DNA of 64,000 nt, from the IMG/VR virus record IMGVR_UViG_3300021479_000010, positions 32,207-96,206 of that record; one strand, written 5' to 3'. Origin of the DNA: a virus. The notes under the pieces were generated by a model. The model was not told the origin of the DNA and searched no databases. It saw nothing but the letters and a program-made list of their open reading frames with translations. Below, piece by piece: positions 31,504 through 43,687 of this stretch. Positions within the stretch are counted from its first letter, which is position 1; every line of letters starts with the position of its first letter. The position numbers were made by a program, and so were the translations under genes.

Positions 31504-33596
31504 TGGCCTTGTTGCAACATGACGGAAACGAACATAAAGTCCTAGAAGGGACAGACTTTACTTCGTCCGGAGAATTAAAGACTCGGGAAGATACCACCGC
31601 TCTCGTTGTGGGTTTTGCGGAAAAATCTGAAACGTGGATCGCAAGCAAGCAGTGGAATTTGATGTGGAGGGACGCAGATTTACTGTTCCAAGCGCCCCGT
31701 CCGATGTCTGTTGTAGAAAATACTTATGTACTAGAACCTAACGTGCAGAGGTTCACTGTTGCAAAAGTAGTTAACTCGGTGGTGCCTCAATTATATAAAG
31801 GTTTGTTCTTCGAAAATCCGCCGATGGTCCTCCGCCCACGTCCCGGAACTTCTCAGAAAATTACGGATGATAAAACTGTAATTATTTCGTATCTTCTCGA
31901 TGCTTGCCAATTTAAACGAGAGGTTAAATGGGGATTAGAGTGCCTCGCCCATCTCGGAACCGGCATTTGGAAGTGGGGAATCGAGCGAGTTGAAAAGGAA
32001 ATTCCCCGCAGAGTTAGCACGGACGTAAGTATTGATCCGGGTAAAGGCGCTCCGCCAGAGAAGATTAGCGCGGATGAACCGCCCAAGATCGAAACAGTTA
32101 AGAAGATTTGTTCTAAGCCTTTCTTCGAATTTCGTCCTATCCAGCGTGTTCTCGTAAGCCCCAATCTTAAAGTCGGCGATATTCGAGAATCCGATGAAGT
32201 TGCCGATGTCCGATATATGGATTTTTATCAGCTTCAGGATTTGAAGAAGGCTAATTCGGTTGATGGTAAACCGATGGAAGGTTGGACTTGGGACGAATAT
32301 TATAGTGATGAGAAACTGAAAGAACTGTGGAATCCGCCGGTCGAGGGATTCGAAACTCCAGGTCCTTTGCGCACAGATGTTCAAGCGCAAACAACTGGAG
32401 TTGTTCACCACGGAGAAGAAGATACTTTTGTAAATAGCGCGGACCCTCTCGCAAAGAAACTAGAAGTTCTAGAATATTGGACGAAACGCCGCAAAATTAT
32501 TGTTCTCAATCGCAAGAAGACCATCTTCAGCGGCGAAAATCCTTTTCGCAAGATTCCTTTCTTGTCGGCAAATTGGTGGAACCGCCCCAAAGCTTTCTAT
32601 GGCATGGGTATCGGGTTAACCGTAGGACAGAATCAGCGAGTTGACCAAGGCACAATCAACTCGATTCTAAAGGTTCTGAGTTTCGCGGTAAATCCCGCAT
32701 ACGTGCGCACGCGAGATTCCAATGCTCCGACGCAGATGATCCGGACCGGCATTGGGAAGATTATTACCGTTGACGGAATAGCCAGCGAAGCTTTTCATCT
32801 TTTAGAGACTCCGAAAGTTCCGCCGGATACATGGGCTGCGCTACAAAATTCAGAAGCGAACACGGAGTCTACAACTGGCGCGGATCAGTCATTAGTTCAG
32901 GGCTCAACTGCCGGGCCGCGTACCGGAATGGGGCGTTCTGCCGCTGGTGCGAATGCTCTTGCAAATGCTTCTGCGACTCGTCTTGACGGCCCTCTAGATA
33001 ATTTCATCGATCAAGTATTTACGCCGTTCCTGTATATTCTAGACGAACTCGTATTTTATTACATGTCCGACCAAGAAATTCAAGATATTCTTGGCGAGGA
33101 AAAAGGCAAAGATTACAGAACCGATCTCCAGCAATTCCACGATGGCAAAATAGAATTCGAAGTTTTGGCGAGTTCTAGCCTCGCAGCCAAGAGAACGATG
33201 GCCCAGAGCCTGACTCTAATTACTCAGTTCATGCAGAACCCCGGCTTTAATGAATACTTGGCCGATCTGGGTCTGTATATCGATTGGGAGACCATCTTCG
33301 ATATGTGGTTGATGGCCAGCGAATGGAAGAATGGCCAAGACATTATTAAACATCTTACTCCGGAAATGGAGCAGAGACGCCAAGCCAAATTGCAGCAACA
33401 ACAGCAAGGTCCGCTGCAAACGCAGATGGCGATTAACAATCAGAAGGCACAAGATAAGTCTGCTTTGGAAGATCAACGTTCCGCAAATAAGATCAAAAAT
33501 GACTTGGTTCGTTTTGCAACTCTACACTCCGCCGAATCAGAAGCCACCGAAGGCGAACCCGGTAATACCGGATTTGGCGATATTGAGGGCATGTAA
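31503..33596 (+). CDS. portal protein
   Basis: 697 residues from ATG at 31503 (TTG at 31497 is an alternative). Large size, position after the terminase and before the scaffold and capsid genes, and text such as W-N-R-P-K-A-F-Y-G-M-G-I-G-L-T-V-G-Q-N-Q fit podoviral portals. So do the late coiled-coil, Gln-rich C-terminus. The portal forms the packaging ring at one vertex. The start has only a weak ribosome site, possibly altered by the HNH insertion. Confidence 0.85.
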   Translation: MALLQHDGNEHKVLEGTDFTSSGELKTREDTTALVVGFAEKSETWIASKQWNLMWRDADLLFQAPRPMSVVENTYVLEPNVQRFTVAKVVNSVVPQLYKGLFFENPPMVLRPRPGTSQKITDDKTVIISYLLDACQFKREVKWGLECLAHLGTGIWKWGIERVEKEIPRRVSTDVSIDPGKGAPPEKISADEPPKIETVKKICSKPFFEFRPIQRVLVSPNLKVGDIRESDEVADVRYMDFYQLQDLKKANSVDGKPMEGWTWDEYYSDEKLKELWNPPVEGFETPGPLRTDVQAQTTGVVHHGEEDTFVNSADPLAKKLEVLEYWTKRRKIIVLNRKKTIFSGENPFRKIPFLSANWWNRPKAFYGMGIGLTVGQNQRVDQGTINSILKVLSFAVNPAYVRTRDSNAPTQMIRTGIGKIITVDGIASEAFHLLETPKVPPDTWAALQNSEANTESTTGADQSLVQGSTAGPRTGMGRSAAGANALANASATRLDGPLDNFIDQVFTPFLYILDELVFYYMSDQEIQDILGEEKGKDYRTDLQQFHDGKIEFEVLASSSLAAKRTMAQSLTLITQFMQNPGFNEYLADLGLYIDWETIFDMWLMASEWKNGQDIIKHLTPEMEQRRQAKLQQQQQGPLQTQMAINNQKAQDKSALEDQRSANKIKNDLVRFATLHSAESEATEGEPGNTGFGDIEGM

Positions 33597-34769: not shown

Positions 34770-35639
34770 ATGTCAGACGAAACTCCAGTTGTTCCAGTTG
34801 CGGACCCCGCACCGGTTGTCGAAGCACCCAAAGAATTCATTTTCCAATACCAGCCTAAGGATGAAGAAGGTAAGCCTCTCGGAGCCCCTCAGGTTATCAA
34901 AGCAACTAACCCAGAAGAAGCGCTAGAGAAGATGGCCGCGCAGAATTCCGAGCTGGTGAAGCTGAATCGAAAACTGAACAAGGATATCCGACTGGGTAAT
35001 ATCGTTCAGGACGAAATTCCAGCAGATGCTCCTCGATTCAATAGTGCTCAATACGATTTTAATCCCAAGCCCTTGACTGCCGAAGATAGATTACAACTTA
35101 CACAGGATTTGAACGATCCCGAGAAGTGCGATTCGGCTATGGACAGATTGATTTCTGCTAGGATCGGCGATCCGGAAGCAATTCGTCAGACTCTTAGGCA
35201 AACTCGACAAGAGATCGCGACTATGCACGCTTTGGCGCAAGCCGAGGCTTTTGTAAAGAGTACTCCTGAATATTATGGTTGCGAAGAAAATAAACAAACG
35301 TTGGGATCGTGGATGATCAAGAATAATCTTGATCCTATCTTGAAAAATTTCAAATTAGCTTTTACAACATTGGGACCGCAAGGCGCAAATATCCTGAAAG
35401 AACGTCCGGTTCCGGAAGCACCGAAACCCGCTCCTGTGGTGGAACCACAGTCTGAACCCGCTCCGGTAGTAGTCGCCCCGCGCCCCGTAAGTTCTGGACT
35501 GACGCGGACAAATTCTTCGGATGCCGGAACCCCTATGAAAACCGGATACAGCGCCGCAGAAATTGAGAAAATGTCCGGTGAGGAATATAAACAGAAAGTT
35601 TTGATTCCTCAATTCCGTAGTCAACGCCAGCGTGCGTAA
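34770..35639 (+). CDS. scaffold-like protein
   Basis: 289 residues. Pro/Val/Ala-rich ends (P-V-V-P-V-A-D-P-A-P-V-V, P-A-P-V-V-E-P) around a helical middle with coiled-coil potential (A-L-E-K-M-A-A-Q-N-S-E-L-V-K-L). Two genes upstream of the capsid gene, as usual for prohead scaffolds. It should be absent from mature virions. Confidence 0.7.
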   Translation: MSDETPVVPVADPAPVVEAPKEFIFQYQPKDEEGKPLGAPQVIKATNPEEALEKMAAQNSELVKLNRKLNKDIRLGNIVQDEIPADAPRFNSAQYDFNPKPLTAEDRLQLTQDLNDPEKCDSAMDRLISARIGDPEAIRQTLRQTRQEIATMHALAQAEAFVKSTPEYYGCEENKQTLGSWMIKNNLDPILKNFKLAFTTLGPQGANILKERPVPEAPKPAPVVEPQSEPAPVVVAPRPVSSGLTRTNSSDAGTPMKTGYSAAEIEKMSGEEYKQKVLIPQFRSQRQRA

Positions 35640-36129: not shown

Positions 36130-36167
36130 AATACCTGATATATTAGGCTACCCCGCAAATTTGCCGA

Positions 36168-36185
36168 GAGAATCGGATTATTCTC
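36168..36185 (+). ncRNA. CGGATT-loop hairpin 1
   Basis: GAGAAT-CGGATT-ATTCTC: a perfect six-base stem with loop CGGATT in the capsid leader. Confidence 0.6.
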
Positions 36186-36243
36186 AAAGCCCCAACGCAT
36201 GTGAGGGATTCACCTTGGTCAACTCTTGACTGAGGACAGCACA

Positions 36244-36261
36244 ACGAGTCGGATTACTCGT
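36244..36261 (+). ncRNA. CGGATT-loop hairpin 2
   Basis: ACGAGT-CGGATT-ACTCGT: same loop and closing U-A pair, unrelated stem sequence, 43 bases before the capsid ATG. Confidence 0.65.
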
Positions 36262-36303
36262 CTAGGCTGCCGCGCATAAGAGTATTCCAATTACAGGTGA
36301 AAT

Positions 36304-37347
36304 ATGGCTTTTTCTCCGGCTGGCAATAACCAGTCAAATCTTCCGCAGAGTACTGTGCGATATTACGACAAAAAGTTCCGCGAGAACTTGAAAGCACAGA
36401 CCCCCTTCGTCGCTTGCTCCGAGCGTTTGGACCTCCCGATGAAGAGTGGTAACCAGTACAACCTCTATATGTACGTTCCGTTGGCCGCGAATACCTCGCA
36501 GACCACGGAAGGTACGGTTGGCAGCTCAATCACAGTTAGCGTCCTGAATACCTCGGCTACGATTGGTGAGTATGCGGATTACGCGAACTTCTCCAGTCTG
36601 TCTTTGGCGACTGCCATCGACAACACGGTCGAGAACGTCGCTCGCGAAATGGCGTATCGCCTCGGCGAGTCGCTTTCCGCGCTGGTTCGTGCGACGGCAG
36701 ATGGTGCGAACTCGGTTGACTCGTCTGTCCTGACGAAGCTCGCCGCGACTTCGACCACGAGCTTTACCACTCTGTCCTTGACCTACATCCGCAACGCCGT
36801 CCAGAGCTTGGCCGGTCGTTCGGTGCGGCCCTTCGATGAAGCGAGCAAGAACTTCGCAGGCGTCATCCATCCCTTCACCCTTGGCGATGTGTTGGCGGAC
36901 AACTCGAACGACTCGCCAATCGATATCCTGAAGCGGACCCCGCAGGGTTATGCGCGGTTGGATGAAATCATCTCAACCGACCTGACCGAAGTCATCGAAA
37001 TCCCGACTTCCGGCGTGAGCTTCTTCCAGTCCAACCTCGTCACGACCAGCTCGAACTACAATCCGGGCACGGGCGCAGTGACTGGCTTGACGGCGCTCCG
37101 CACGTACATTTTTGGCCGGGACGGCATTTTCTCGATCAATCTTGGTGCGATGGGCGACACGGGCTACGGCGATGGCGAATGGCGCAATATTAAATGCAAC
37201 ATTGTGCAAAATGCCGAGCCGTCTGTGGCTGACCCGTCTGGCCTAATTCCTGGTTGGACGAGCTATCGTGTTCATTTTACAACTAGTTTGGGGCCGGATA
37301 CTACGATCCGCATAAGAGAAATAGACGCCGCGTCGGCCATCTCCTAA
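36304..37347 (+). CDS. major capsid protein, N4-gp56 type
   Basis: 347 residues. T-V-R-Y-Y-D-K-K-F-R-E-N-L-K-A-Q-T-P-F, K-S-G-N-Q-Y-N-L-Y-M-Y-V-P-L and T-I-G-E-Y-A-D-Y-A are hallmarks of the N4-gp56 capsid family (HK97 fold). AGGTGAAAT precedes the ATG. Its codons are strongly biased to G/C endings (AAC, ACC, GGC, GTC) compared with neighbours, as expected for the most abundant protein. It ends with G-A-T-like weak hairpin CTCTTT/AAAGAG at 37348-37366. Confidence 0.9.
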   Translation: MAFSPAGNNQSNLPQSTVRYYDKKFRENLKAQTPFVACSERLDLPMKSGNQYNLYMYVPLAANTSQTTEGTVGSSITVSVLNTSATIGEYADYANFSSLSLATAIDNTVENVAREMAYRLGESLSALVRATADGANSVDSSVLTKLAATSTTSFTTLSLTYIRNAVQSLAGRSVRPFDEASKNFAGVIHPFTLGDVLADNSNDSPIDILKRTPQGYARLDEIISTDLTEVIEIPTSGVSFFQSNLVTTSSNYNPGTGAVTGLTALRTYIFGRDGIFSINLGAMGDTGYGDGEWRNIKCNIVQNAEPSVADPSGLIPGWTSYRVHFTTSLGPDTTIRIREIDAASAIS

Positions 37348-37375
37348 CTCTTTGATTTTAAAAGAGATCGAGTTG

Positions 37376-37403
37376 TTGACAAAGTGTTTATTTCTGGTAT
37401 AAT
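37376..37403 (+). promoter_or_regulatory. strong promoter of the endonuclease VII-like gene
   Basis: TTGACA (37376-37381), 16 bases, TATAAT (37398-37403), right after the capsid gene. Confidence 0.8.
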
Positions 37404-37439
37404 GTTTGTAGCTGGTTGACACTGGTTACAAATCGAGGA

Positions 37440-37489
37440 GGGCGGGTGCCTTACCACTCGCCCAAATCGGTTCCCTGTAAGGAGGGAAT
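37440..37489 (+). promoter_or_regulatory. double hairpin leader hiding the ribosome site
   Basis: Hairpin 1: GGGCGGGTG / CACTCGCCC-type nine-base stem (37440-37463). Hairpin 2: TTCCCT / AGGGAA (37471-37488) whose loop and 3' arm contain the AAGGAGG of the next gene, so translation may be held down. Confidence 0.6.
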
Positions 37490-38209
37490 ATGATAGGCGA
37501 AAAGCATTTCAGATACGAATTCCTGATGTTTGCATGGATTGAAAATCAACAGAAATATTATTTGTGTGTTTGCGATTGTGGCGCATTGCGCATTCTTCGC
37601 GGAGCTTCCGTAAAGAATGGCAATCAAAAAAGCTGTGGCTGCCTTCGAAGAGAGAAAGCAAAAGAAAGCATTATCGCGAGAAATGCCGCCCAAGCGGGGC
37701 AGCCGCGATCTGCAAAAGGAAAACTTGCTTCTCAGGCAGCTTGCAAGAAAATGAATGAAGTACGGCATAATCAAGCCAAACACATATTATCTAATGTCGA
37801 TTCCGCTGCCTTAACTGGTGATTGTAATGTTTGTGGTCGTGTTCCTGTCAAAGTAATGAAGCACAGGAACAATAAATGGCAATACATCAGAGATCAGTAT
37901 TTATGTTGGGTCGGTACGCGGAATAGAGTCGAACAGGGCGAACCCGCCAAAGTTTCATATCCCAATCAAGCACTCGAAATGTGGGATAAACAAGAAAATA
38001 ATTGTGCGCTATGCGGCGGTCCTATGGTGCGTGCGGGCAATTCTTGGGATGGTGCGACATTAGATCACTGTCATTCCAATGGGTTTATACGAGGTTTTAT
38101 CCACCAAGGCTGCAATAAAGGGTTAGGTCATTTCTTGGACGATCCCGAAGCTTTGCGTAAAGCCGCCGCATATATCGAACGAGCACGCGGCCTCTTGACA
38201 AATTCCTAA
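37490..38209 (+). CDS. HNH endonuclease, recombination endonuclease VII type
   Basis: 239 residues. N-terminal module with Y-L-C-V-C-D-C-G and Q-K-S-C-G-C-L shared with 1759-2274 and 57423-57932. The C-terminal nuclease is C-A-L-C-G-G...L-D-H-C-H-S-N-G-F-I-R-G-F-I-H-Q-G-C-N-K-G-L-G, the zinc-binding HNH of T4 gp49-like enzymes. T4 gp49 resolves branched DNA before packaging. Here the fused module, private promoter and structured leader suggest a mobile gene, though a resolvase role is possible. Confidence 0.85.
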   Translation: MIGEKHFRYEFLMFAWIENQQKYYLCVCDCGALRILRGASVKNGNQKSCGCLRREKAKESIIARNAAQAGQPRSAKGKLASQAACKKMNEVRHNQAKHILSNVDSAALTGDCNVCGRVPVKVMKHRNNKWQYIRDQYLCWVGTRNRVEQGEPAKVSYPNQALEMWDKQENNCALCGGPMVRAGNSWDGATLDHCHSNGFIRGFIHQGCNKGLGHFLDDPEALRKAAAYIERARGLLTNS

Positions 38210-38223
38210 TTGTAGCGTATCAT
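38195..38223 (+). promoter_or_regulatory. promoter before the tRNA
   Basis: TTGACA (38195-38200), 17 bases, TATCAT (38218-38223). The -35 lies in the last codons of the nuclease gene; the tRNA begins 19 bases after the -10. Confidence 0.7.
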
Positions 38224-38241
38224 AATAATTGCGGGGTTTTA

Positions 38242-38317
38242 GGGTCGGAAGCCAAACGGTGAGGCGACGGTCTGTGGCACCGTTCTTTAGCAGGTTCGAC
38301 TCCTGCCCTTCCCTCCA
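38242..38317 (+). tRNA. tRNA-His (GTG), atypical acceptor stem
   Basis: 76 bases fold as a cloverleaf. D arm GCC...GGC with GGT in the loop. Anticodon stem ACGGT/ACCGT with loop CTGTGGC (anticodon GTG). T arm GCAGG-TTCGACT-CCTGC. 3' CCA is encoded. The acceptor pairs GGGTCGG with CCTTCCC, leaving two central mismatches. The discriminator is T rather than the C expected for tRNA-His, though A at 38241 could pair with it like the -1 base. It could be a functional divergent tRNA or a decaying one. Confidence 0.75.
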
Positions 38318-38429
38318 AAGTTGCGCGGCGGGTTTCACCCGTGTCCGGATTATTAGCGAATTGCCGGGCAGACCTTTGCCGCCTTAAGAGCGTGGAATAA
38401 GCCGCGCAGAATCATCGAGTTGTGACATT

Positions 38430-38585
38430 ATGAACTTGCGGGGCTCCTTTCCGGGCAAGGAAAGTGATATCCGTTACACCCCTCCCGGCAACGAAACTGA
38501 CGGTACCGACGAACTAGAAAAAATCTACTACACCCCCGATCCGCGAGAAGACGATGAAGCTGGTGACCTACGTAGTAATAGCTAA
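38430..38585 (+). CDS. small acidic hypothetical protein
   Basis: 51 residues from ATG at 38430: M-N-L-R-G-S-F-P-G-K-E-S-D-I-R-Y-T-P-P, then Asp/Glu-rich. No strong ribosome site. It overlaps the next gene by 32 bases; the coherent composition supports coding. Confidence 0.5.
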   Translation: MNLRGSFPGKESDIRYTPPGNETDGTDELEKIYYTPDPREDDEAGDLRSNS

Positions 38586-38757
38586 AATATTTACGGGACT
38601 CGCGATTCTTTCTATTGCTTGCGGGGCGTATGCCGCAGCTTCTGGCAATGTAGATATGTTTTTTGGTGGTGCCTGTGGTACAATTGTTTTCGCAAGTTTG
38701 GCCGCGAAGATAATTCAAAAATGCATCGAGATTCGCAATGAGCCGTCCGAAGGGTAG
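38554..38757 (+). CDS. small membrane protein
   Basis: 67 residues with two hydrophobic helices (V-V-I-A-K-I-F-T-G-L-A-I-L-S-I-A and G-T-I-V-F-A-S-L-A-A-K-I) and a short polar tail. It could be a holin-class protein, but no lysis gene is adjacent. Confidence 0.6.
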   Translation: MKLVTYVVIAKIFTGLAILSIACGAYAAASGNVDMFFGGACGTIVFASLAAKIIQKCIEIRNEPSEG

Positions 38758-38980
38758 CAAAAACAAACCCCGTCCGCATCTGGACAACGTTCAGCATATT
38801 CCGTGTGCAAAACCAGAACTTGTGCAGCATATTGGCCGATTCATACGGTACTTTGATAAAGGTTGGCGGTTCTCAAAACTCCTCGCAATTAAAGACAATA
38901 TTGCTCTATTAGAGCACCCGGTATCTGGCAAACATAAATTAAGTTTAAAGGACGTGGAGCCGAATCCTTGGGCAAAATAA
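38738..38980 (+). CDS. small hypothetical protein, SH3-like
   Basis: 80 residues; basic N-terminus (R-P-K-G-S-K-N-K-P-R) and beta-type body (G-W-R-F-S-K-L-L-A-I-K-D-N-I-A-L-L-E-H). An exact inverted repeat copy (38770-38787) is read here as R-P-H-L-D-N. Overlaps both neighbours. Confidence 0.6.
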   Translation: MSRPKGSKNKPRPHLDNVQHIPCAKPELVQHIGRFIRYFDKGWRFSKLLAIKDNIALLEHPVSGKHKLSLKDVEPNPWAK

Positions 38981-39153
38981 TCCCCTTTTACATTCCCAAA
39001 AGGTATCGTAAGAAAGATAAATTCGTTCCCGAAAGATTGCGCGGCAAAATCCTACCGTTCCCCGAACCCAAAGAACCTAAGAAAACCCTAACTGAAAGAT
39101 TTCACGGTATTTTGATTACTGATAAACGTCGCTTTTCAGACGATATAGTTTGA
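38968..39153 (+). CDS. small basic hypothetical protein
   Basis: 61 residues from TTG at 38968, overlapping the previous gene by 13 bases. Lys/Arg-rich with repeated K-I-(I/L)-P-F (K-I-I-P-F-Y and K-I-L-P-F-P). No family recognised. Confidence 0.5.
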   Translation: MGKIIPFYIPKRYRKKDKFVPERLRGKILPFPEPKEPKKTLTERFHGILITDKRRFSDDIV

Positions 39154-39181
39154 GGTTGCATCAGGTGACCTCAAGATAATT

Positions 39182-39439
39182 ATGGCCCTTTTGGTTGTTA
39201 ATTCGAATACGCCGATGAACTACGACGATCCCTTGATAAGCTTTAGGGTTCGCGGGGATGAAGTCGCCGCGCTCTATCCGGATGGGACTCTTATCACGCA
39301 AGGCGACAGTTTAGCAGATCGTGTCGTGGCTACACAGTATTTAACGCAATCGTATGCGTCTACCACACCTGCGGGGTCTCCACCTGCTACGCCCGTGAGC
39401 GGCGGCATGGGCGGTCCTGTAGACGGCGGACAGTTCTAA
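39182..39439 (+). CDS. small structural protein candidate
   Basis: 85 residues; starts M-A-L-L-V-V-N-S-N-T-P-M-N and ends in a Gly/Pro-rich tail. It precedes a set of decoration or fibre-type genes. No family recognised. Confidence 0.6.
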   Translation: MALLVVNSNTPMNYDDPLISFRVRGDEVAALYPDGTLITQGDSLADRVVATQYLTQSYASTTPAGSPPATPVSGGMGGPVDGGQF

Positions 39440-39477
39440 GATTCTAGTACGCTCATGACCCTAAATCTAGGGGTCCA

Positions 39478-40086
39478 ATGCCAACTATACAAGTAAAACG
39501 CGGCCTAGCCGCAAATCTTCCGGCATCTGGCGCGGCTGGCGAGCCGATATTCACTACAGATGACCAAATTTTACATATGGGAACTGGGGCGGCAGTCGTC
39601 CCGGTTAAGATCGCGGCTGCTAATGTTACGGGGCTCGTTAATGGCGGAACCGAAACAGTCAACGCGCAATCAGGGGCGACATACACAGTTGTTGCGGGCG
39701 ACGCCGGAAAATTAGTTACTCTTAGTAATGCCGGGGCTGTCGCGGTGACCGTCCCATCAGCAGTATTCACTTCTGGACAATTTGCCGATTTCGAGAACAA
39801 AGGTGTCGGTGATGTAACAATCACTACAACTGCCGCAACGATTAATGGCGCGGCAACTTTCGTTCTACATACCAATCAAGGCATACGAGTTGTATTTGAT
39901 GGTACGAATTTCCAGACATTGCTGGGTCGCGCAGTCGTAGCCAAAACCGCAGTAGGCAGTCAGTGGTTAAACTCCGTAGCAGCTGATGGAACATTTACTT
40001 CTACCCAGCCCGCGATGACAGATATCACGGGCGTTGTTCAAGCCTCGCAATTAACCGGAGTTGTAATAGACGGCGGAACATTTTAG
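39478..40086 (+). CDS. decoration or fibre-type virion protein
   Basis: 202 residues. It opens I-Q-V-K-R-G-L-A-A-N-L-P, then G-E-P-I-F-T-T-D-D-Q-I-L-H-M-G-T-G. This N-terminal pattern is found in many phage appendage proteins, where a short beta domain attaches to the particle. The middle is beta-rich (Y-T-V-V-A-G-D-A-G-K-L-V-T-L). Confidence 0.65.
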   Translation: MPTIQVKRGLAANLPASGAAGEPIFTTDDQILHMGTGAAVVPVKIAAANVTGLVNGGTETVNAQSGATYTVVAGDAGKLVTLSNAGAVAVTVPSAVFTSGQFADFENKGVGDVTITTTAATINGAATFVLHTNQGIRVVFDGTNFQTLLGRAVVAKTAVGSQWLNSVAADGTFTSTQPAMTDITGVVQASQLTGVVIDGGTF

Positions 40087-40125
40087 CTAAGACTCTACTG
40101 GCCAATCCCCGACTAGGAGAGTACA

Positions 40126-40836
40126 TTGATTCAAATAGACGTAATAAATGAATCGTCCGAAGCCAGCGATCAGATGATTAAGTGGCTGACTGCGGCCCTT
40201 CAAATTCAGGTAAACCGGGATTTTTCTCCCATTTGGGGAATACAGGCCCAGTTAAATTTTATCCCGAATCATGGGGTTCCGAATCCCGCACATTGGCAAT
40301 TGGTATTTCTGGATAATGCAGACGTTGCTGGGGCGCTAGGATACCACGACCTAACGGTTTCTGGATTGCCAATTGGCAAAGTTTTCATCCGCACGACCGA
40401 GCTTGATAATTCTGCGTGGTCCGTAACAGCCTCTCATGAATTACTCGAAATGCTTGTCGATCCGTGGGTAGATTCCGCAGTCATTCTTTTGAACGCCGAT
40501 GGTTCGGGAACCGCGTATGCTTACGAAGTCGGTGATCCTTGCGAGTCCGACAACCTCGGTTATGTGATCAATGATTTCAAGATGTCTGATTTCACAACTC
40601 CGCAGTGGTTTGATCCTCCGACATTGATGACTAATGCTAAATTTGATTTCATGGGGCACATTACACAACCCCTTCAGATTTTGTCAGGCGGATATATTGG
40701 AGTACTAGACATCTTTGGAAGCGGAGGATGGACCCAGCTTCTTGGAGATGGTTCTAAGACCACGACCGTTCCAAAAGGTTCGCGTCGAGAACTTCGTACT
40801 AAACCATATTCGCAGAGGGCGCGTAGCACTAGGTAA
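40126..40836 (+). CDS. putative zincin-like protein (HELLEM motif)
   Basis: 236 residues from TTG at 40126, with GGAGAG upstream. T-A-S-H-E-L-L-E-M-L-V-D-P-W is an HExxE-type motif and may be a metal site. Later Y-E-V-G-D-P-C-E-S-D and F-T-T-P-Q-W-F follow. Related S-H-E-L-L-E-M proteins exist in bacteria and phages without assigned function (from memory). Peptidase activity is a guess. Location among decoration genes suggests a virion-bound enzyme. Confidence 0.55.
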   Translation: MIQIDVINESSEASDQMIKWLTAALQIQVNRDFSPIWGIQAQLNFIPNHGVPNPAHWQLVFLDNADVAGALGYHDLTVSGLPIGKVFIRTTELDNSAWSVTASHELLEMLVDPWVDSAVILLNADGSGTAYAYEVGDPCESDNLGYVINDFKMSDFTTPQWFDPPTLMTNAKFDFMGHITQPLQILSGGYIGVLDIFGSGGWTQLLGDGSKTTTVPKGSRRELRTKPYSQRARSTR

Positions 40837-41153
40837 TGGCAAGAAACTTAACACTCCTACCACTGCGGGGCGTGCAGGCGAATCTTTCGCAGGCACTCCC
40901 CTTAGCTCTGGGAGAGATGTATTTCAGCACCGACACTGGCAACCTATACTTTGGCACCCCCGGCTTTGGCGTAGGCTATGTCCAGATCGGAGATACAACC
41001 AAAGTGAACGAAACACTCTTACAATTATTGGAAGAAATTAAAGCTATGCGGGCCGCCATTGTGTCTATGGCGTGCGATGGTGGCCGCGCGAAGCCCTCAG
41101 ATTTTGATCCCCGAACAGATACGGGGACAGACTCAAGTACCACACAGGATTAG
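40836..41153 (+). CDS. short appendage-type protein
   Basis: 105 residues; L-P-L-A-L-G-E-M-Y-F-S-T-D-T-G-N-L-Y-F-G is the attachment-type motif also seen at 39478, followed by a short coiled coil (N-E-T-L-L-Q-L-L-E-E-I-K). Coupled to the previous gene (TAATG). Confidence 0.6.
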   Translation: MARNLTLLPLRGVQANLSQALPLALGEMYFSTDTGNLYFGTPGFGVGYVQIGDTTKVNETLLQLLEEIKAMRAAIVSMACDGGRAKPSDFDPRTDTGTDSSTTQD

Positions 41154-41159
41154 GGGATT

Positions 41160-41780
41160 ATGCAACTACAATTACAGGTCGGACCACAAATTGTTCAAGA
41201 TGGCGTTCCTGCTACAATGCGCGGTGGCAAATCCGCTGAAGCAATTGTAACAGAATTAAACGGACGCTACTATGAGCAAGTTTATCGCGGCAATACTTTT
41301 ACCGCCGCAACACAAGCAGGAGTAGCGATTACGAATCTTGCTACTACGGCCACGGGATTTATTCTTAGCAATCCGGCGGGTTCCGGCAAGAACCTAGTCC
41401 TTCTGGAAATCGCCTTGGCGCAGACTTCCACTGCCGCTGCCGCCGCAAACGCTGCCATTGTTTTAGCTGCCAATATCAACCCAGTGGCGACCGCTGTAGT
41501 GCATACTACGCCGCTCACGATCCAGCCCGCACTCTTAGGCGGTACGGCGGGTTCGGTTGCCAAGGCGGATTCCGCCGCGACATTGCCTGTCGCGCCTTCC
41601 GTTGTTCGTGTTTTGTGGCAACCTTCGGTTTCCGCTACGGCCACGACCGCTATTCCACCTTATGTGAAGGATGAAGTTGCGGGGGCGCTTGCAATTGCTC
41701 CAGGATGCGCGGTATCTTTGTCCGCTTTCTCCGCCGTCAGCGCGATTGCCCATTTTACGTGGGCTGAACTTCCCATCTAA
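41160..41780 (+). CDS. virion structural protein candidate
   Basis: 206 residues, Ala/Thr/Val-rich beta-type. M-Q-L-Q-L-Q-V-G-P-Q then R-G-G-K-S-A-E-A-I-V-T-E-L-N-G-R-Y-Y-E. Similar overall to 24183-24806. Last gene before a 242-base structured gap. Confidence 0.55.
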   Translation: MQLQLQVGPQIVQDGVPATMRGGKSAEAIVTELNGRYYEQVYRGNTFTAATQAGVAITNLATTATGFILSNPAGSGKNLVLLEIALAQTSTAAAAANAAIVLAANINPVATAVVHTTPLTIQPALLGGTAGSVAKADSAATLPVAPSVVRVLWQPSVSATATTAIPPYVKDEVAGALAIAPGCAVSLSAFSAVSAIAHFTWAELPI

Positions 41781-41795
41781 TTTGGTGTCCGTGGG

Positions 41796-41944
41796 CAACG
41801 ATTCGGATTAATCGTTGTTCGCATCTGGACGCCATTCGCCGAGTCGCTATCGGCAAACCCCGCACTCTGGGGGCATCAGGGTAAGGAATTGCCTTAGCGG
41901 GTAATTCTGCACTTGCTGATTTACGGGGCACCGGATAATCAGCA
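41796..41944 (+). ncRNA. run of hairpins in a 242-base leader
   Basis: The gap 41781-42022 has no gene. It holds CAACGATT-CGGATT-AATCGTTG (41796-41817, loop CGGATT) and GCCGA...TCGGC (41838-41854). It also holds TAAGG...CCTTA (41882-41896) and TTGCTGATT...AATCAGCA-type (41914-41944). A near copy of the inverted repeat (41815-41832) overlaps the first hairpin. The four successive stems suggest a structured RNA leader for the genes starting at 42023. Confidence 0.55.
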
Positions 41945-42022
41945 TCGGACTACGGCTCCGTCCAAGCCTGTCCGGGAAGAAAAAGAATTCGTTCCTCTCG
42001 GACTCCGAGTTTAAGGAAGATA

Positions 42023-43090: not shown

Positions 43091-43687
43091 ATGACAGACG
43101 AAGTGAAGAAGAAAAAGACCGTTCAAGAACTCATGAACACCCCGCTTGACGAGTTAACTACTGAGGAAATTGAACGCCGGGTAGTTTTGCTCAAGGCACA
43201 AGAAGCCGAACTCAACGCACAGGATTTAAAGGATCGCGTTGACGAACGCAAGAATAAACGCCAGATGGTTTCCGAGCAGTTTCGCGCCCGTGGGCGAGAA
43301 CTAAAGCAAACCGTTCGAGCACAGGAAATACACCAGAGCAATTGTAGCCATCGTAAGGGTGGACGCGGTTTGGAAGCAATTCAGAAGGGCGGCACCGCAT
43401 CTGACTACGCAGTGATCCGTCATCTACTTCCAAATAACGAGTGGTGGCAGAGGTGCCAGCGTTGTGGTAAAACGTGGCGTCCGCCGAATCGTGAAGAATA
43501 TAACCTAGAAGTTCAGACCGAACGCGAAGCTTTTGAGGCCGCGCAAAAAGCTTACAAAGAAGCTATGTCTTGGCCGACAGATAACATCCCCTCGACTGGG
43601 ATTACGTTCCAGCATCACAGCGAAGACGGCGATGTCAGTGCTCGTAAATTCGTTTACGAGATCATGAAGGACACCACGCTTCGATAA
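43091..43687 (+). CDS. coiled-coil protein with zinc-type site
   Basis: 198 residues. Residues about 12-80 form a long charged coiled coil (E-I-E-R-R-V-V-L-L-K-A-Q-E-A-E-L). Then N-C-S-H-R-K-G-G-R-G and W-Q-R-C-Q-R-C-G-K-T-W make a Cys/His metal site. Role unknown, perhaps head-tail joining. Confidence 0.6.
   Translation: MTDEVKKKKTVQELMNTPLDELTTEEIERRVVLLKAQEAELNAQDLKDRVDERKNKRQMVSEQFRARGRELKQTVRAQEIHQSNCSHRKGGRGLEAIQKGGTASDYAVIRHLLPNNEWWQRCQRCGKTWRPPNREEYNLEVQTEREAFEAAQKAYKEAMSWPTDNIPSTGITFQHHSEDGDVSARKFVYEIMKDTTLR

Follow-up and report, generated by a model that had tools for sequence, protein, structure and literature searches.

We analyzed three hairpins with the loop CGGATT in a 64,000-nucleotide (nt) stretch of virus DNA (positions 32,207 to 96,206 of the IMG/VR record IMGVR_UViG_3300021479_000010; hereafter the window), two of them in the leader of the major capsid protein gene and one at the start of a second leader. 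They belong to a covarying RNA element that a large group of soil phages shares and that is probably an operator, by which a phage-encoded RNA-binding protein would control the translation of head-assembly genes. This assignment draws on the compensatory changes in the stems, the strand bias of the hairpins, their position at translation starts in a second phage lineage, the restricted set of genes that carry them and a pseudoknot in the capsid gene leader.

CGGATT hairpins in the window

The three hairpins of the sequence-only reading, a model-generated annotation made from the letters of the window, were all recovered on the plus strand where it had placed them:

36168..36185 (+), hairpin H1 of the capsid gene leader, with a 6-base pair (bp) stem GAGAAT/ATTCTC and the loop CGGATT at 36174-36179; a homologous hairpin is found in relatives
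36244..36261 (+), hairpin H2 of the capsid gene leader, with a 6-bp stem ACGAGT/ACTCGT and the loop CGGATT at 36250-36255
41791..41822 (+), third hairpin, at the start of the second leader, with a full stem of 13 bp (8-bp core at 41796-41817) and the loop CGGATT at 41804-41809
36304..37347 (+), major capsid protein gene, downstream of the tandem pair H1 and H2

No other CGGATT hairpin with a stem of at least 5 bp occurs in the window, and none was found in the remaining 32 kb of the 96,206-bp virus record. The earlier description of these hairpins as confined to the two longest gaps of the virion module is roughly right; another long gap holds a tRNA-His gene (38242-38317), which gave the sole Rfam match at the gathering threshold. 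Both leaders fold better than shuffled sequence (z-scores of -4.3 and -4.8). Since the window contains 406 hexaloop hairpins with stems of at least 6 bp on its two strands, and the highest count for any one loop is three, three identical loops are suggestive but not decisive when the window is taken alone. This doubt was settled by the relatives, in which CGGATT is the commonest hexaloop of such hairpins.

Conservation and covariation in the lineage of the window

The product of the capsid gene matches the major head protein family phrog_1357 (E-value 1.7e-16) and is 82% identical to the major head protein of Tunturi_3, a cultivated podovirus of Tunturiibacter and the sole close capsid match in the phage collection. 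Lineage 1 was sampled as 80 metagenomic viral contigs with related capsid genes, together with Tunturi_3. Among hexaloop hairpins with stems of at least 6 bp in the 80 relatives, the loop CGGATT was counted 50 times and the runner-up 18 times. Nearly all of these CGGATT hairpins lie upstream of the capsid gene, on many different stems. When stems of at least 5 bp are considered, 93 hairpins are in the sense and 7 in the antisense orientation. Most leaders have two copies, spaced by about 71-85 nt, and the distance to the capsid start ranges from some 54 to 400 nt.

The covariance model search that the sequence-only reading had proposed was run with a model of the whole leader, R1, which recovered it before the capsid gene in almost every leader-type relative, with a single significant place per genome and invariably in the sense orientation. 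In an alignment of 25 leaders, 20 of 23 base pairs show double changes, with G-U pairs among the accepted stem changes. Of all alignment cells, 92.1% are paired, compared with 73.2% in shuffled and 22-50% in slid versions; the covariation score is 0.56 versus 0.20. Because this alignment was fitted to the covariance model, these values lean towards structure. In a test that did not require a stem, 33 of 38 lineage 1 sites form stems, compared with 7.8 after arm swaps (maximum 15). A covarying RNA element is thus strongly supported: copies are conserved in relatives and stems are maintained by compensatory change, so that neither observation named beforehand as fatal to the idea, the lack of copies in relatives or of compensatory change, was made. 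In a distant capsid relative, MW202801.1, no such hairpin was seen at the gene starts.

In many relatives, namely L059, L064-L070, L072, L078 and many of L119-L171, the capsid gene seems to be broken up by sequence that resembles group I introns and contains HNH-type open reading frames (ORFs); this reading is based on capsid matches that are split or start late and on GATGCGATAGTCCGA motifs. In L114, L119, L123 and L134, ORFs with CxxC zinc motifs (CKHCG...CQKC) follow just after the capsid match and are possibly endonucleases of interrupted capsid genes.

Architecture of the capsid gene leader

The capsid gene leader is a pseudoknotted RNA of ~120 nt that encloses the tandem hairpin pair, also in Tunturi_3, where H2 reads CCAGU-CGGAUU-ACUGG. 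In the window, it comprises, besides H1 and H2, the following features:

36166..36292 (+), whole leader RNA, matching covariance model R1 with 82.4 bits
36199..36203 (+), 5' strand AUGUG of the enclosing helix PX, overlapping the conserved GAGG at 36203-36206
36213..36235 (+), hairpin P3, CCUUGGUC/GACUGAGG with the loop AACUCUU (helices 3 and 4)
36222..36227 (+), 5' strand ACUCUU of the pseudoknot, in the P3 loop, with its partner at 36278-36283
36273..36277 (+), 3' strand CGCAU of PX
36278..36283 (+), 3' strand AAGAGU of the pseudoknot

Aligned relatives have the same order of elements: H1, the 5' strand of PX followed by GAGG, P3, H2, the closing strand of PX and the stretch that pairs with the P3 loop. 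The pseudoknot pairing is ACUCUU/AAGAGU in the window and GUCU/GGAC, GUCU/AGAC, CCUU/AAGG, CCCU/AGGG or UCCU/AGGA elsewhere, and its observed mean pairing was reached by none of 500 partner swaps. The PX pairing AUGUG/CGCAU was read by hand in the window, where it is shifted relative to most relatives. Its partner-swap result (11.4 observed versus 10.8 +/- 0.4) is not significant alone, because kin sequences share arms and automatic picks failed for some of them; column counts support PX. Kissing of the P3 loop with the CGGAUU loops was considered by eye and rejected, as type-II loops (GAGACC) would mismatch. Scans against Rfam at gathering and permissive thresholds returned no credible match for the leaders.

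A separate recurring hairpin with a Shine-Dalgarno-like loop (CUCU-GGGAGG-AGAG) lies 60-80 nt before the capsid start in L006, L008, L031, L081 and others, and the loops TGGGAG, GGAGGA and TGGAGG are common among the hexaloop hairpins of the relatives. It mostly lacks a start codon at normal spacing and is possibly a ribosome standby site.

Hairpins at the Shine-Dalgarno sequence in a second lineage

A capsid protein with 38% identity to that of the window was first found in a contig of an acidobacterial metagenome-assembled genome (Candidatus Sulfotelmatobacter), and its gene was used to fetch 80 further viral loci, referred to as lineage 2. Here the CGGATT hairpins with stems of at least 5 bp are again strand-specific (about 40 sense versus 1 antisense). 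They stand directly 5' of the Shine-Dalgarno sequence, the loop being 21-29 nt upstream of the start codon, in the typical layout (A)CCCGY-stem-(C/T)GGATT-stem-AGGAGAATG...ATG. The loop is CGGATT, TGGATT or the pentaloop GGATT, which is also common. Among 156 distinct hexaloop hairpins before starts with a Shine-Dalgarno sequence, CGGATT accounts for 26 and the next loop for six.

For the stem test in this lineage, sites were picked by a gene start with GGATT within 45 nt, ignoring the stem. GGATT is present at 42 of 50 distinct starts of the gene in the scaffold position, and 39 of these 42 sites form stems of at least 5 bp, while swaps of the 3' arm gave a mean of 2.0 and a maximum of 8 such stems in 1000 trials. 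This test does not depend on the model-fitted alignment of the 25 leaders. The element is thus a structure-conserved hairpin with invariant recognition bases, as in translational operators, and it stands in or beside the translation initiation region in lineage 2 and in the divergent phage L255 described below, and farther upstream in lineage 1.

A blind search of viral contigs with the pattern CCCG - CGGATT - GGAGA and free spacers, run as a sample rather than a census, returned stems of at least 5 bp in 3 of 80 among the matches listed, and the prediction held. Two of the three are lineage 2 sites or their relatives. The third precedes the scaffold-position gene of L255, a phage with 45% identity to lineage 2 in the capsid protein and 28% identity over 183 residues in the scaffold protein. 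The scaffold gene of L255 contains two internal GGATT hairpins ahead of the capsid gene, an arrangement also seen in lineage 1.

Hairpins also occur within coding sequence in lineage 1. In 31 relatives, the scaffold-position ORF extends to the capsid gene without a separate leader, and most of these genomes hold the hairpins inside this ORF. The second hairpin is found there in two reading frames, encoding R-I at 10 distinct sites and P-G-L at 3, a pattern that speaks for selection at the nucleic acid level.

Target genes and the candidate regulators

The genes that carry the element were determined in eight lineage 2 records of 82-106 kb (G052 to its first 100 kb), where copies next to a Shine-Dalgarno sequence belong mainly to two or three gene families. 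These are the scaffold-position gene (361-424 amino acids), a zinc-ribbon gene (about 157-237 amino acids) and, in some records, a small gene before the scaffold (67-121 amino acids). The window contains homologs of the first two:

34770..35639 (+), scaffold-position gene, between the portal and capsid genes; its lineage 2 homologs carry the hairpin at the Shine-Dalgarno sequence
43091..43687 (+), zinc-ribbon gene gX (C-x-H ... C-x-x-C); its lineage 2 homologs have their own operator hairpin

The scaffold assignment relies on synteny and weak homology, with no PHROG or Pfam match; in Tunturi_3, this position is occupied by gp4. The zinc-ribbon family, which includes the window gene as well as gp9 and gp11 of Tunturi_3, is common to both lineages and L255, as are the capsid and scaffold proteins. 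A hairpin belonging to the zinc-ribbon gene itself was found in two settings: lineage 2, and Tunturi_3, whose gp9 has GAGGGU-GGAUU-ACCCUU in the gap ahead of it. In the window, the gene run to which the zinc-ribbon gene belongs has a leader that begins with the third hairpin. The zinc-ribbon protein has no meaningful match in Pfam, PHROG or PDB folds, and its predicted structure consists of one long helix plus the ribbon (pLDDT, the predicted local distance difference test score, of 85).

Two of these proteins are candidates for the hairpin-binding regulator. The zinc-ribbon protein leads, on account of a motif typical of nucleic-acid binding and of the operator that its gene has in lineage 2, and we put it forward tentatively. 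The scaffold protein, proposed by analogy to phage P22, is a somewhat more doubtful choice, and a different protein may fill the role instead.

Proposed mechanism and alternative explanations

The hairpins would be copies of one operator, with a free stem of 5-7 bp, a loop of 5-6 nt and the core GGAUU, which a sequence-specific RNA-binding protein, most likely phage-encoded, may read on head-assembly mRNA. An invariant loop on free stems, a fixed strand and, in lineage 2, a position at the ribosome entry site give the element the look of protein-bound translational operators, and the contact of the lineage 2 hairpins with the Shine-Dalgarno sequences of their target genes points to translation. 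In lineage 2, a protein bound there would bar ribosomes from the mRNAs for the scaffold, the zinc-ribbon protein and sometimes the small gene (assistance to their entry being less likely), and this could provide feedback on head-protein levels, with translation of head genes being repressed as their products accumulate. In the lineage of the window, the tandem pair forms part of the pseudoknotted capsid leader, and a single copy stands at the start of the leader of the zinc-ribbon gene run. We also consider it possible, though rather unlikely as a whole, that head assembly has an RNA regulon under one phage protein, probably the zinc-ribbon protein encoded in the same module, which would read GGAUU hairpins on the scaffold, capsid and its own mRNAs and in this way link translation to the assembly of capsids, with the two-hairpin pseudoknot of the capsid leader serving as its receptor in one lineage.

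Several observations weigh against this operator model. In the lineage of the window, the two hairpins are 54 and 130 nt upstream of the capsid start rather than at its Shine-Dalgarno sequence, so that blocking there must be indirect. About one-sixth of the lineage 2 scaffold starts lack a GGATT hairpin, and lineage 1 zinc-ribbon genes are mostly without a hairpin of their own. The first of the hairpins within the scaffold-position ORF is always in one frame, encoding G-L-L, and constitutes weaker evidence because it coincides with a motif that is also conserved in the protein. A comparison of the zinc-ribbon model with the PDB matched no solved structure, which leaves this protein as a guess for the regulator. 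Both protein binding and an effect on expression are putative.

The sequence-only reading had offered a binding site for a phage RNA-binding or antitermination protein. The former is probably correct, judging from the invariant loop, the covarying stems and the restriction to the sense strand, while an antitermination role received no specific support. One alternative is an element that acts on transcription, namely an attenuator or an RNA of the nut or put kind by which an antitermination complex is loaded onto late transcripts. It would suit the long leaders and the terminator-like CUCGGACUCCGAGUUU with an alternative pairing in leader 2, but this terminator-like hairpin is restricted to the closest kin of the window. 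Moreover, the lineage 2 hairpins abut the Shine-Dalgarno sequence 21-29 nt before the start codon, several targets of one late region each own a copy, and in other phages the pair lies inside translated scaffold sequence, all of which make this explanation improbable. About as improbable is a processing or decay site, in which the GGA of the loop would be cut by an mRNA endonuclease similar to RegB of phage T4, with maturation or turnover of head mRNAs as the outcome. RegB, which recognizes GGA, cleaves GGAG/U close to Shine-Dalgarno sites (PMC3014915), and a GGA core in the loop and sites in translation initiation regions are found here as well. However, RegB acts on early transcripts rather than late head genes, its strong sites precede A-rich sequence, a long invariant loop on maintained stems exceeds what recognition of GGA needs, and no nuclease gene was linked to the sites.

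The chance that the ligand is CsrA or a similar conserved RNA-binding protein of the host is slightly smaller still. In sites of the CsrA type, GGA is part of a six-nt loop and overlap with the Shine-Dalgarno sequence is frequent, which resembles the lineage 2 arrangement, but the loop bound by CsrA (and RsmA) is ANGGAN. The loops found here are (C/T)GGATT or GGATT with mostly a T-A or C-G closing pair, so that the base two before GG is mostly U or C, belonging to the closing pair, and the register differs. The UU after GGA is also invariant, and in whole genomes regular copies next to a Shine-Dalgarno sequence occur only on the head genes listed above. We regard a DNA-level element, such as a single-stranded hairpin, a hairpin promoter or a recombination or packaging site, as very improbable. 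Promoters of the N4 type are hairpins with an invariant loop and a free stem, and the present hairpins share these properties; their strict sense orientation, the Shine-Dalgarno spacing and the accepted G-U pairs argue for RNA instead, and the largest ORF in the window (1235 amino acids) is below the size of a virion RNA polymerase.

The second leader and a dispersed palindrome

The RNA opened by the third hairpin has the following features:

41802..42016 (+), RNA of the second leader, shared with L001-L003 alone (73% identity) and containing several conserved hairpins
41997..42012 (+), hairpin CUCGGACUCCGAG with UUU, which resembles a terminator; it closes this leader and has a competing upstream pairing

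The terminator-like hairpin and the alternative pairing are present in both available sequences, and with only two distinct sequences to judge from, this leader may carry an attenuator. No kinship with the capsid leader was found beyond the single hairpin.

The GTCC-N6-GGAC repeat, which had been taken as a mark of the same two gaps, is instead distributed genome-wide, and leader 2 has only an imperfect copy (GTTCGCATCTGGAC). The window contains 23 copies versus 0.55 expected (e.g., at 1075, 8332, 36114, 38772 and 53059), and the whole genome 35 versus about 1, mostly inside genes and with an apparent orientation with local transcription. Lineage 2 genomes have 4-76 copies of GTCC-N7-GGAC per genome (G050, G049, G052, G047 and G046). 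The spacing is fixed per lineage and the center is genome-specific (GGATAAT, AGAAAAT or GCAAAAC). We therefore rejected it as part of the hairpin element and treat it as a separate dispersed palindrome, reminiscent of the stoperators of mycobacteriophages.

Comparison with known systems

A literature search found no description of a GGAUU hairpin element in the papers covered. Closest among the systems described are the gp43 hairpin operator and, in the case of the capsid leader, the gene 32 pseudoknot of T4. The operator of the T4 and RB69 DNA polymerase gp43 is a hairpin upstream of the start that reaches the ribosome binding site, with loop bases conserved between the phages (PMC3014915). 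It resembles the present element as a phage RNA hairpin upstream of a start with a conserved loop, but it autoregulates one replication gene through the loop UAAC, whereas here the core is GGAUU and several head-assembly genes carry it. In T4 gene 32, a pseudoknot in the leader, located tens of nt before the start, is bound by the product of this gene, the zinc protein gp32, and is described as perhaps the sole viral pseudoknot in translational autoregulation (PMC3014915). The likeness to the capsid leader lies in a pseudoknot upstream of the start, here ACUCUU/AAGAGU, with no sequence or topology in common; unlike the gene 32 leader, the capsid leader pseudoknot holds two hairpins with identical loops and precedes a capsid gene.

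Other parallels are functional. Operators of the MS2 coat protein type are small hairpins at a translation start, recognized by the loop and closing pairs; they belong to an RNA phage, have the loop AUUA with a bulged A, and their binding also packages the genome, in contrast to the GGAUU loop described here. Com of phage Mu is a zinc-binding protein that acts on RNA at the mom translation start and can be likened, by description only, to the zinc-ribbon candidate, although it activates a DNA-modification gene. In phage P22, the scaffold gene lies between the portal and coat genes and controls its own synthesis; this autoregulation by the scaffolding protein gp8 was reportedly described by Wyckoff and Casjens in 1985 (cited in PMC5744158). 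The likeness, again by description only, is a regulated scaffold gene in this position, and we know of no RNA hairpin operator of this sequence in P22.

How the scaffold-to-capsid ratio of tailed phages is set at the RNA level has been open since the autoregulation of the P22 scaffold. An RNA element with a clear consensus now marks head genes in a large phage group, one member of which has a cultivated host, so that RNA-level control of head genes becomes testable; the element could also serve as an orthogonal translation switch. Set beside the systems above, it represents a functional kind that is already known, but as an RNA element it is new and has a pseudoknotted form.

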